Assembly (NCBI GenBank): GCA_016929635.1 | Contig: JAFGIL010000012.1 | Coordinates: 1 to 49,303 of the forward strand | Direction: 5' to 3' | Length of the DNA stretch: 49,303 nt | Source: Endomicrobiales bacterium | GTDB taxonomy: Bacteria; Elusimicrobiota; Endomicrobiia; Endomicrobiales; JAFGIL01 | Part shown: positions 4,155-12,073 of the stretch, in pieces | Numbering within the stretch: position 1 is the first letter of the stretch | Layout of the letters: each line of letters begins with the position of its first letter | Program-made: the position numbers and the translations under genes | The notes under the pieces: generated by a model | Told to the model about the DNA's origin: nothing | The model's input: only the letters and a program-made list of their open reading frames with translations | Databases searched by the model: none

Positions 4155-5147
4155 ATGAGTATACAGACCAGCGGAAATATTAAAAAATCAGAGTTGGAAA
4201 GAATATTCTCGAATGTAGTGAAGGAAAAAAAGATTACATTTGAGGAAGCTGCTTGTTTATTTTCCGTTGAGGTTGAGGAGCTCCTTGGCTGGGCGGATAA
4301 AATACGCGAGCATTTTAAAGGTAAAAAAATAAAACTTTGCAGTATAATAAATGCAAAGTCCGGATTGTGCTCCCAGGACTGCAAGTTTTGCGCACAGTCT
4401 TCGCATTATAAAACAAAGATAGATACATATCCTCTTGTTAATAAGGAAGAAATCAAAAAAGGCTTAAATCAGGCCGTAAACAACAGCGCCGGGTGTTATG
4501 GTATTGTAACAAGCGGGCATTCGCTTTCCGAAAAAGAGATTGATGTCTTATGTTTGGCATTATCTGAATGTAACGGCAGTAAAATAAACTTAAGCGCATC
4601 TCTGGGCAGTTTGAACAGGGATTTGCTGCGTAAACTTCAGGAAGCAGGATTGAGGAAGTACCATCATAATCTGGAAACAAGCGAAAGTTTTTTTCCGGAT
4701 GTCTGCACAACGCAGAGTTACAGCCAGAGAGTTGAAACTGTGAAGCTTGCAAAGGAGCTGGGGCTGAAAGTTTGCTGCGGCGGTATTTTTGGGTTAGGGG
4801 AGACAAAAGAACAGAGGCTTGAGCTTGCCTTCACTCTGAGAGAATTGGATGTAGACTCCGTGCCTCTCAATTTTTTAAATCCCATTCCCGGGACTCCCCT
4901 GGAAAACTCGAAAAATATAACGCCTATGGAAATCCTGCAGACAATTGCTGTATTCCGTTTTGTATTGCCTGATAAGGACATCAATATATGCGGGGGGCGC
5001 GAGGTAAATTTAGGCGACTTGCAGTCCCGGATTTTCCGCGCAGGAGCAAACGGTATGATGGTCGGGGGTTATTTAACCACATCGGGCCGTTCGGTAGAAC
5101 AAGATTTAAAAATGATAAATGATCTGGAGTTTGAAATTTATGAATAA
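4155..5147 (+). CDS. bioB: Biotin synthase
   Basis: This radical SAM enzyme inserts sulfur into dethiobiotin, the last step of biotin synthesis. The 330 residues are normal for BioB. The CxxxCxxC site for the SAM-binding 4Fe-4S cluster is CSQDCKFC (Cys72, Cys76, Cys79), preceded by INAKSG. Further cysteines in GCYGIVTSGH and VCCGGIFGLGET fit the ligands of the second, sulfur-donating 2Fe-2S cluster. 'NFLNPIPGTP' and 'GGRE' are also family marks. The stop overlaps the start of the SDR gene by 8 bases, implying translational coupling. It opens the biotin cluster that continues to bioA. Confidence 0.96.
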   Translation: MSIQTSGNIKKSELERIFSNVVKEKKITFEEAACLFSVEVEELLGWADKIREHFKGKKIKLCSIINAKSGLCSQDCKFCAQSSHYKTKIDTYPLVNKEEIKKGLNQAVNNSAGCYGIVTSGHSLSEKEIDVLCLALSECNGSKINLSASLGSLNRDLLRKLQEAGLRKYHHNLETSESFFPDVCTTQSYSQRVETVKLAKELGLKVCCGGIFGLGETKEQRLELAFTLRELDVDSVPLNFLNPIPGTPLENSKNITPMEILQTIAVFRFVLPDKDINICGGREVNLGDLQSRIFRAGANGMMVGGYLTTSGRSVEQDLKMINDLEFEIYE

Positions 5148-5871
5148 AAATCCAGTTGTATTAATTACCGGAGGTTCGCGCGGCATAGGCGCAGGCATTG
5201 CAAGCGAGTTTGCGGGCAACGGTTATAATGTGGTGATCAACTTTTTACAAGATAAAAAGAAAGCAGATGAATTGTTAGAGAAAATCAGAACCAAAAAAGG
5301 AACGGCCAGGTTGTATCAGGCAGACATAACTGATTCTTCCGGCGTAAAAAAAATGGTTGAAGATATATTAAAAAACGAAGGAAGGATTGATGTATTAATA
5401 AATAACGCGGGAGTAATAGTAAACAAAAGTATTCTGAAAACAGACGATAGTGACTGGGAAAAAGTGATAAAAACGGATTTAACCGGCGCTTTTTACTTAA
5501 TAAAGGAATGCTCGGGAGTTATGGCAAGGCAAAAAAGCGGCTCTATCGTTAATATAACCTCAATAGTCGGTGCAAGGGGAGTGGGGGGAAGCTCAGGGTA
5601 TGCAAGCGCAAAGGCCGGGCTTATGGGCCTTACAAAGTCAGCAGCAAGGGAGCTGGGCCGTTTTAATATCTGCGTGAATGCTGTTATGCCCGGGTTTCAC
5701 CTGACGGACATGGGAAAGGAAGCCAGTGATAAATATATGGAGCTTGTGAAAAACGAAAGCGTCCTGAAAAGGACAACGGACATAGATGAACTTGCGAAAT
5801 TCATAGTTTTTTTGTCCGGGATGAAAACCGTTTCAGGGCAGGTATTTAACTGGGATTCACGAATAATATAA
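5140..5871 (+). CDS. FabG-like short-chain reductase in the biotin cluster
   Basis: This is a 243-residue short-chain dehydrogenase/reductase of the 3-oxoacyl-ACP reductase type. It has the nucleotide motif TGGSRGIG (10-17), NNAG (88-91), catalytic Ser141, Tyr154 and Lys158 (YASAK), and a C-terminal region like FabG. The tetrad Asn expected in the TNL stretch is Asp here (KTDLTGAF, about 111-118), which is unusual for FabG. I chose the ATG at 5140 because GGAG at 5126-5129 precedes it and the longer frame (from 5119) only adds residues inside bioB. It lies between bioB and a ketoacyl synthase, so the two may extend and reduce a pimelate precursor. A housekeeping FabG cannot be excluded. Confidence 0.85.
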   Translation: MNKNPVVLITGGSRGIGAGIASEFAGNGYNVVINFLQDKKKADELLEKIRTKKGTARLYQADITDSSGVKKMVEDILKNEGRIDVLINNAGVIVNKSILKTDDSDWEKVIKTDLTGAFYLIKECSGVMARQKSGSIVNITSIVGARGVGGSSGYASAKAGLMGLTKSAARELGRFNICVNAVMPGFHLTDMGKEASDKYMELVKNESVLKRTTDIDELAKFIVFLSGMKTVSGQVFNWDSRII

Positions 5872-5895
5872 GCTGATTTCTGAAGGCTCTAATTT

Positions 5896-10019: not shown

Positions 10020-10658
10020 ATGAACAAAGGTATTTTTGTTACTGCAACAGATACGGAAGTAGGCAAGACCTATATTTCGTGCTCCATAGCGCGTGCTTTA
10101 AAGAAGAGAGGCGTCAGCGTAGGAGTGATGAAACCCATTGCCTCAGGTTCAAGGGACGACGCGTTTAAGCTGAAAAAATCGTCAAGGATTAAGGAACCCA
10201 TAGAGAGAATAAATCCTGTTTTCTTGATATATCCCCTTGCCCCTTTGGTTTCTGCAAGATTGTCGTGCCAGAAGATAAATTTTTCAAAAATAAATAGAAG
10301 CTTTAAGTATTTCAAAAAGAAGTACAGGTTTAATATCGTAGAGGGAATAGGCGGATTGATGGTCCCGATAAAAAAAGGATACATGGTCATTGATATGATT
10401 AAGGATTTTTCACTTCCAGTAGTTGTGGTTTCAAGGCCCAATCTGGGAACCATAAACCATACGATTCTTACGGTGGAGGCGCTCCGCAGAAAAAGAATCA
10501 GGGTTTTAGGAATAATACTAAACGGGAAAAGAAGGCCGGGCCTGGCTGAAAAAACAAATCCGGGAATTATCAGGGAGGTTACAAAGCTTCCTGTTGCAGA
10601 GGTTCCGTTCGGCAGAAAACTGGATTTGGATAAAAATAAATGGATACTGGGAGAATGA
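10020..10658 (+). CDS. bioD: ATP-dependent dethiobiotin synthetase
   Basis: The enzyme closes the ureido ring of 7,8-diaminopelargonate using CO2 and ATP to give dethiobiotin. The 212-residue protein has the BioD P-loop [10 protein letters not shown] (8-17) at the very N-terminus and the second motif [10 protein letters not shown] (about 110-119). It starts one base after the bioF stop and its stop region overlaps the start region of bioA, so the three are one operon. A long open frame on the opposite strand (10070-10711) is a shadow of this gene. Confidence 0.94.
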
Positions 10659-10666
10659 GGGCTGAA

Positions 10667-12073
10667 ATGAAGAACAACCTGATAAAAGAAGATAAAAAAT
10701 ATGTTTGGCATCCCTTCACGCAGATGTCTGACTGGGTAAAAGACGAGCCGTCCACTCCTGTTGTTATTGAAAAGGGCAGAGGTAATTACATATATGACGT
10801 AAACGGGAAGAAATATCTGGACGGTGTTTCGTCTTTATGGGTGACTCTTCACGGGCATGCAAACCGCGTGATAAATAGAAGAATAAGTCAGCAGTTATCA
10901 AAGATTGCGCATTCCACTTTTCTCGGGCTGACGCATGGGCCTGCAGTCAAACTTGCAAAAGAGCTGGTTAAGATAACGCCACAGGGGTTAACGCGCGTGT
11001 TTTATTCGGATAACGGCTCAACAGCTGTTGAGATAGCGCTGAAGATGGCTTATCAATACTGGCATCAGACTGAAAAGAAATCCAAACGGGATAGATTCTT
11101 GTCTTTAAAGAATGCTTATCACGGAGATACAATAGGTTCTGTTTCAGTGGGAGGCATAGATTTATTTCACAGCATTTTCAGGCCGTTGCTTTATAAAACG
11201 TATTATGCGCCTTCGCCTTACTGTTACAGGTGCAGGTTCCGGGTCAGGGGTTATGATTTCGGAGTTCATAGCAAGAACTTTCTTGAACATTGCCGCAGGA
11301 TGGGATGCAAAGGCCAGTGCGTGAAAGAGTTTGAGAAAATATTGAAAAAATACCATAAAAGAATTGCGGCTGTTGTGCTTGAGCCGATGATACAGGGCGC
11401 TGCAGGGATGTTAACAATGCCGCCCGGGTATTTAAAAGAAATAGACAGCATACGCAGGAAGTATAAAACTCTTTTAATTTGCGATGAAGTCGCAACCGGA
11501 TTCGGCAGGACAGGGAAGATGTTCGCAACTGAATTTGAAAACATAAAACCGGATTTTTTGTGCCTTGCAAAAGGAATTACAGGAGGATACCTGCCCCTGG
11601 CTGCCACTTTGGCAACGGAAAAGATTTACAGAGGGTTTCTCGGTAAGTATGAGGAGTTTAAAACATTTTTTCACGGGCACACCTACACTGCAAACCCGTT
11701 AGGTTGTGCTGCAGCGCTTGCAAACCTGGAGATTTTCAGGAAATCAAAAGTGTTAAAAAAGCTGCCGGAAAAAATTGGGCATATGAGTAAAGAGCTTAAA
11801 AAACTTGCTCAAATGGAATGTGTGGGAAATATCAGGCAGCTGGGACTTATGGTTGGTATTGAGCTTGTAAAAGACAAAAAGAAAATTGTTGATTTTTCAG
11901 CTCAGCAGAAAACAGGAGCCAGGGTGTGCGCAGAATGCAGGAAATACGGATTGATGATTCGTCCTTTAAGCAACGTTATAGTTCTCATGCCCCCTTTAAG
12001 CATCACAAATCATGAGATCAGCAGGATGATAGCTATAGTCAGAAAGTGTATATTGAAAATATGTAAAAAATAG
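10667..12073 (+). CDS. bioA: Adenosylmethionine-8-amino-7-oxononanoate aminotransferase
   Basis: This class III PLP aminotransferase converts KAPA to DAPA, classically with SAM as amino donor. The BioA-specific WHPFTQM lies at 14-20. Further marks are AYHGDTIGSVS (150-160), DEVATGFGRTG (273-283) and the PLP lysine Lys302 in LAKGITGGYLPLA. A Cys-rich insertion (CYRC at 186-189, HCRRMGCKGQC at 208-218) is seen in many anaerobe BioA proteins. I chose the ATG at 10667, with GAGGGCTGAA before it; the ATG at 10655 overlaps the bioD stop (ATGA) and 10640 is the longest frame. It closes the biotin cluster. A promoter for pgi lies across its last codons. Confidence 0.93.
   Translation: MKNNLIKEDKKYVWHPFTQMSDWVKDEPSTPVVIEKGRGNYIYDVNGKKYLDGVSSLWVTLHGHANRVINRRISQQLSKIAHSTFLGLTHGPAVKLAKELVKITPQGLTRVFYSDNGSTAVEIALKMAYQYWHQTEKKSKRDRFLSLKNAYHGDTIGSVSVGGIDLFHSIFRPLLYKTYYAPSPYCYRCRFRVRGYDFGVHSKNFLEHCRRMGCKGQCVKEFEKILKKYHKRIAAVVLEPMIQGAAGMLTMPPGYLKEIDSIRRKYKTLLICDEVATGFGRTGKMFATEFENIKPDFLCLAKGITGGYLPLAATLATEKIYRGFLGKYEEFKTFFHGHTYTANPLGCAAALANLEIFRKSKVLKKLPEKIGHMSKELKKLAQMECVGNIRQLGLMVGIELVKDKKKIVDFSAQQKTGARVCAECRKYGLMIRPLSNVIVLMPPLSITNHEISRMIAIVRKCILKICKK

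Follow-up and report, generated by a model that had tools for sequence, protein, structure and literature searches.

A biotin operon with genes resembling those of fatty acid synthesis has been described in Desulfovibrio, where DVU2558-DVU2565 includes FabF-, FabG-, acyl carrier protein (ACP)-, and FabZ-like genes (Rodionov 2004, PMC545781). The cluster is needed for biotin synthesis as judged by transposon fitness, and chain elongation without methyl esters was proposed for it (Trotter 2023, PMC10102598). For the Endomicrobia, the source of pimelate has been described as unclear, or bioW as the only missing gene (mBio 2024, PMC11257099; mSphere 2022, PMC8809381). The window analyzed here, which is the whole 49,303-nucleotide stretch of contig JAFGIL010000012.1 (assembly GCA_016929635.1), comes from a member of the Elusimicrobiota, order Endomicrobiales. 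It carries an operon with the gene order bioB–SDR–KAS–[GT-C]–bioF–bioD–bioA, all on the plus strand, in which a FabG-like short-chain dehydrogenase/reductase (SDR) and a shortened ketoacyl-ACP synthase (KAS) stand among the biotin genes. We propose, at a probability of roughly three in four, that the SDR–KAS pair is a dedicated pimeloyl-ACP synthesis module, which would replace the methyl ester masking carried out by BioC and BioH (or BioG).

In this light, the Elusimicrobiota operon may be regarded as the Desulfovibrio idea carried out with only two genes. In both cases, FabF-like and FabG-like genes lie in a bio operon, and the proposed route is malonyl-ACP elongation without methyl esters; Desulfovibrio, moreover, has no BioC or BioH. 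However, the Desulfovibrio cluster also contains its own ACP gene and two FabZ-like genes and depends on a nitroreductase-like gene, whereas the Elusimicrobiota operon has only the KAS and the SDR. This likeness, including that of the KAS to DVU2563, is one of gene content as published. The BioZ route of alpha-proteobacteria also uses a ketosynthase specialized for a primer with a free omega-carboxylate in place of BioC/BioH, as we propose for the KAS here. BioZ, however, is a KAS III (FabH kin), while the Elusimicrobiota KAS belongs to the FabF/KAS II lineage and has a dedicated reductase beside it. With the BioC-BioH/BioG route, the pair would share its product, pimeloyl-ACP, and its position in the pathway, but the Elusimicrobiota operon is without a methyltransferase, and its two enzymes probably accommodate the charge that the BioC route masks. 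Our literature search of open-licence papers returned no report of this SDR–KAS pair.

Association of the SDR–KAS pair with biotin genes

Gene identities were judged by NCBIfam equivalog cut-offs, and the window's own genome was searched one protein family at a time. All four bio genes scored above their cut-offs: bioB, encoding biotin synthase (4155..5147; TIGR00433, 399.7 bits, cut-off 225), bioF (8876..10018; TIGR00858, 468.5 bits, cut-off 426.45), bioD (10020..10658; TIGR00347, 171.5 bits, cut-off 83.3), and bioA (10640..12073; TIGR00508, 549.6 bits, cut-off 405). The SDR (5140..5871) and the KAS (5896..7017), which has a KAS II fold, had the FabG and FabF models as their best matches and fell below both cut-offs (TIGR01830, 213.7 bits, cut-off 297.75; TIGR03150, 321.4 bits, cut-off 493.75). 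The end of bioB at 5147 overlaps the start region of the SDR, whose open reading frame is possible from 5119. The ATG at 5140, with GGAG ahead of it at 5126-5129, appears to be the likelier start; SDR residues are numbered here from position 5119. An earlier reading made from the sequence alone, hereafter the sequence-only reading, had named these seven genes and their overlapping or near-touching starts up to the synthase, and both the coordinates and, for the four bio genes, the model matches bear this out. The genes of the operon include no ACP and no FabZ-like dehydratase; there is also no esterase in the window's bio operon, the genome not having been searched with an esterase model.

The pair is kept beside biotin genes across the phylum. 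Of the 41 loci that hold a related KAS, 36 have the SDR on the same strand no more than 3.5 kb away, and 35 have bioB or bioF within that distance, with contig ends among the exceptions. A compact bioB-SDR-KAS-bioF-bioD operon, with bioA in most, is present in other Elusimicrobiota families (f7, f17, f18, f20, f23, and f25). Both the KAS and bioB occur in 28 of the 60 nearest genomes, while 2 have the KAS without bioB, 13 have bioB without the KAS, and 17 lack both genes (Fisher p = 5e-5, which is too small, since these genomes are kin). The SDR, KAS, and bioF are all broken or pseudogenized together in one relative (G046, L194:1782-4500). The adjacency of the pair to bio genes is more than chance. 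In another genome (G012, L193), of these three genes only the KAS is split. When plasmids were searched with the KAS, no match reached 60% identity, and those with a name were fabF.

The sequence-only reading had recognized no known pimelate gene at the locus, and the genome searches extended this to BioC and BioW. The best BioC match in the window's own genome reached 71 bits against a cut-off of 184.95, and none was found at E<=1e-30. BioW (PF03744) was found in 0 of the 60 genomes, with the Bacillus subtilis and M. jannaschii controls positive. BioC and BioW were thus the known pimelate genes not found in the genome; BioH, BioI, and BioE were not searched for. Across the phylum, 9 of 248 genomes have a near-full-length BioC, five of them over the cut-off, and none of the nine has the pair, although with about 45 pair-bearing genomes this exclusion alone could be chance and is supportive only. 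In two Endomicrobiaceae genomes (G013 and G032), bioD-bioA-bioF is followed by BioG (PF04301) and BioC, and the related KAS is absent. The BioG–BioC masking route here sits where the pair would be, which is more telling than the count of 9 in 248. A further relative (G011) carries a different bioB, with bioD- and bioA-like genes after it (L220:8424-11466); this genome and its kin (G010, G058, and G035) are without the pair and without BioC.

Residue replacements and a proposed mechanism

The pair resembles FabF (KAS II) and FabG in fold, catalytic triad, Ser-Tyr-Lys residues, and best Protein Data Bank matches. The operon enzymes differ from them in scoring below the equivalog cut-offs, in their separate clades, in a shortened pocket loop, and in replacements at otherwise characteristic positions (Ile108 to Lys, PGFI to PGFH, and GG to SR). 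In a phylogeny whose KAS comparison set was selected for similarity, not at random, the operon KAS proteins formed one clade apart from Elusimicrobiota and other FabF (ultrafast bootstrap 100, SH-aLRT 99; 94 in a quick tree). The operon SDRs likewise formed one clade apart from FabG (SH-aLRT 100).

The predicted KAS structure (pLDDT 89.6) has the FabF fold, and its top Foldseek matches are FabF. The triad that the sequence-only reading had described as intact, Cys134 (6295..6297), His266 (6691..6693), and His303 (6802..6804), is invariant in the family alignment. By profile alignment, Lys91 (6166..6168) matches Ile108 of B. subtilis FabF, a gating residue of the acyl pocket (PMC5206705, PMC7138838), and the I108F mutant entry 4ls6 has Phe in the same column. 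The Lys91-Ile108 match rests on the alignment to B. subtilis FabF and 4ls6; the E. coli FabF row in the alignment served for numbering only. Lys occupies this position in all 36 operon KAS proteins, including those of families outside the alignment build, versus 1 of 128 other KAS proteins in the similarity-selected set. The stretch between this position and the catalytic Cys is always 55 residues long in Elusimicrobiota FabF but 32 to 54 in the operon KAS proteins, with 43 in the window, which places part of the previously noted shortening locally. The sole nonoperon KAS of the set with Lys at the Ile108 position is from Omnitrophota (L060:6995-8161); it has the same Ser-Lys motif, its neighbors at the end of a contig are RND efflux genes, and it may be a biotin KAS of another phylum.

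The SDR retains Ser-Tyr-Lys (S148, Y161, and K165). Aligned to solved FabG, His194 (5698..5700) is present in 37 of 37 biotin SDRs, with Ile at this position in 17 of 17 FabG proteins, so that the PGFI motif becomes PGFH. Ser247-Arg248 (5857..5862) is also found in all 37, in place of a FabG Gly-Gly that is present in 13 of 17 (the other 4 are gapped). The gain of basic residues in both enzymes would be as expected for an acyl chain that ends in a carboxylate.

The sequence-only reading suggested that the KAS and the SDR may build the pimeloyl chain from a shorter dicarboxylate thioester. The absence of BioC and BioW, the conserved adjacency, the KAS clade, and Lys91 argue for it. Our proposal is based on these observations together with operon membership, the residue replacements in general, and the BioG-BioC genes in the pair's place in two relatives, and from them we infer the substrates, the roles of the residues, and the borrowed enzymes. 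The KAS would be loaded with a short dicarboxylic acyl chain whose omega-carboxylate is unmasked, and would condense this chain with malonyl-ACP. The primer would most likely be malonyl from malonyl-ACP, followed by two elongations, and less likely glutaryl, followed by one. We prefer malonyl because enzymes of the FabF lineage normally use acyl-ACP and malonyl-ACP is readily available. Lys91 and the shortened pocket loop may adapt the acyl pocket, which is normally hydrophobic, to tolerating or binding the omega-carboxylate. The SDR would then reduce the 3-keto-dicarboxyl-ACP, perhaps with His194 and Arg248 in contact with the carboxylate, and each cycle would be finished by a housekeeping ACP, a FabZ-type dehydratase, and an enoyl reductase. 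Several pair-bearing relatives have only one ACP over the cut-off, located in the fab cluster where its neighbors could be read, which argues against a dedicated ACP. The resulting pimeloyl-ACP would be taken by BioF.

We also put forward, tentatively and at just under even odds, a more specific form of this proposal. The Elusimicrobiota would join three malonates, with the omega-carboxylate never masked, by means of two adapted enzymes (a KAS with Ile108 replaced by Lys and an SDR with His and Arg). This would be an old route of the phylum that arose independently of BioZ and perhaps also of the Desulfovibrio cluster. A three-malonate route was proposed long ago and has been doubted on account of the hydrophobic pockets of fatty acid enzymes (Hu and Cronan, PMC7645780). 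Lys91 would answer that objection.

Several points weigh against a dedicated pimeloyl-ACP module. Thirteen of the 60 relatives carry bioB without a related KAS, and only some of these are accounted for: two have BioC, and in one (G007) the contig stops past the SDR. Conversely, two of the 60 hold the KAS with no bioB found. For each of Lys91, His194, and Arg248, the counts reflect a single inherited state and are not independent, and the placement of these residues in the pockets comes from alignment instead of dimer coordinates. Finally, an alpha/beta hydrolase gene lies between bioD and bioA (L179:6342-7217) in one operon whose genome has no BioC; this gene might point to an esterase step.

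Alternative functions for the pair

The alternative that survives best, although we consider it unlikely, is that the KAS is an analogue of BioZ. It would then carry out a single condensation of glutaryl-CoA or glutaryl-ACP with malonyl-ACP, followed by one reduction cycle. A single cycle would account for the small number of dedicated enzymes. The FabF lineage of the KAS, with its usual preference for acyl-ACP, speaks against this reading. By model match and Foldseek, the operon KAS is a KAS II and not a KAS III/FabH paralogue. On the other side, BioZ, a KAS III, does perform this reaction, a basic residue at the end of its pocket has been predicted (PMC7645780), and S84/R147/S287 have been proposed for it (PMC8024396). 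A BioZ proper has no candidate among the relatives, since each has one FabH over the cut-off and this gene lies in the fab cluster where it could be read (in the sister genome); FabH is absent from the window's assembly.

We consider it improbable that the pair makes another acyl chain, destined for a lipid or for some unrelated product, and that only position ties it to the bio genes. A few members of the pair do adjoin unrelated genes, and GT-C, GDSL, and DUF5672 inserts are found between the pair and the bio genes. These observations have to be set against the phylum-wide adjacency, the joint decay with bioF in G046, and the BioG-BioC genes in the pair's place in two relatives.

Slightly more improbable still is that pimelate comes from an unrelated route (the P450 BioI, the diiron enzyme BioE, or imported pimelate), with the pair only assisting. 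BioI, BioE, and importers were not searched for, which leaves some room for this view. However, these organisms are understood to be anaerobes, in which a P450 or a diiron oxygenase is unlikely, and none of the 60 relatives has BioW, which is required for the use of free pimelate.

The remaining alternative is that the pair is an ordinary housekeeping FabF and FabG placed by chance in a biotin operon. The sequence-only reading had counted sole copies of fabF and fabG in the genome as telling against its own interpretation. In the window's assembly (90.26% complete), the operon KAS is indeed the only KAS I/II, and the operon SDR is the only strong FabG match. However, fabH and acpP are missing from this assembly too, while both are present in 12 of the 12 closest relatives, and relatives with the pair also carry a separate FabF of about 415 amino acids. 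In the sister genome (G001), plsX-fabH-fabD-fabG-acpP-fabF are contiguous. The missing fab cluster is therefore probably an assembly gap, and one gap would account for all four genes. A joined query of fab-cluster neighbors had no match in the window's genome, but we draw no conclusion from this negative, as the query had no positive control. On the strength of the relatives' genomes and of the separate clades of both enzymes, we rejected the housekeeping assignment, which we regard as the least probable of all.

Other genes of the locus and implications

The gene that follows the KAS encodes a GT-C-type membrane glycosyltransferase-like protein with C-terminal TPRs (7014..8717; PF13231 and TPR matches). 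Its start overlaps the end of the KAS at 7017, and a 158-bp gap separates it from bioF; the bioF/bioD and bioD/bioA boundaries are touching or overlapping. Among the genomes examined, only four (that of the window, G001, G004, and G005) have this gene after the KAS, and we dropped it as a member of the pathway on this ground. It is probably a passenger. Because the operons of other families are compact, we regard it as an insertion in the window's lineage and in a few neighbors. In one sub-lineage, a DUF5672 gene lies between the KAS and bioF (identified at L046:9701-10474; L038:7897-8736 looks alike).

A short way upstream of bioB in the window are dapL and hom (723-3222), and further families of the Endomicrobiales share the dapL-hom-bioB arrangement (L034, L035, L036, L037, L046, and L191). 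Between hom and bioB lies a gene for a PorV-family outer-membrane-like protein (3255-4112; 48 bits, below the cut-off). A search of the window for BirA boxes found 0 at up to 3 mismatches, and promoter-like matches in the window were no commoner than chance.

Taken together, these data name two genes and three residues as candidates for the pimelate step of the Endomicrobia. If our proposal is true, a fatty acid ketosynthase has been retooled for a charged chain end, the obstacle cited against a direct malonate route (PMC7645780). The pair would then also constitute a compact, methyl-ester-free biotin module, which would be of use in engineering.

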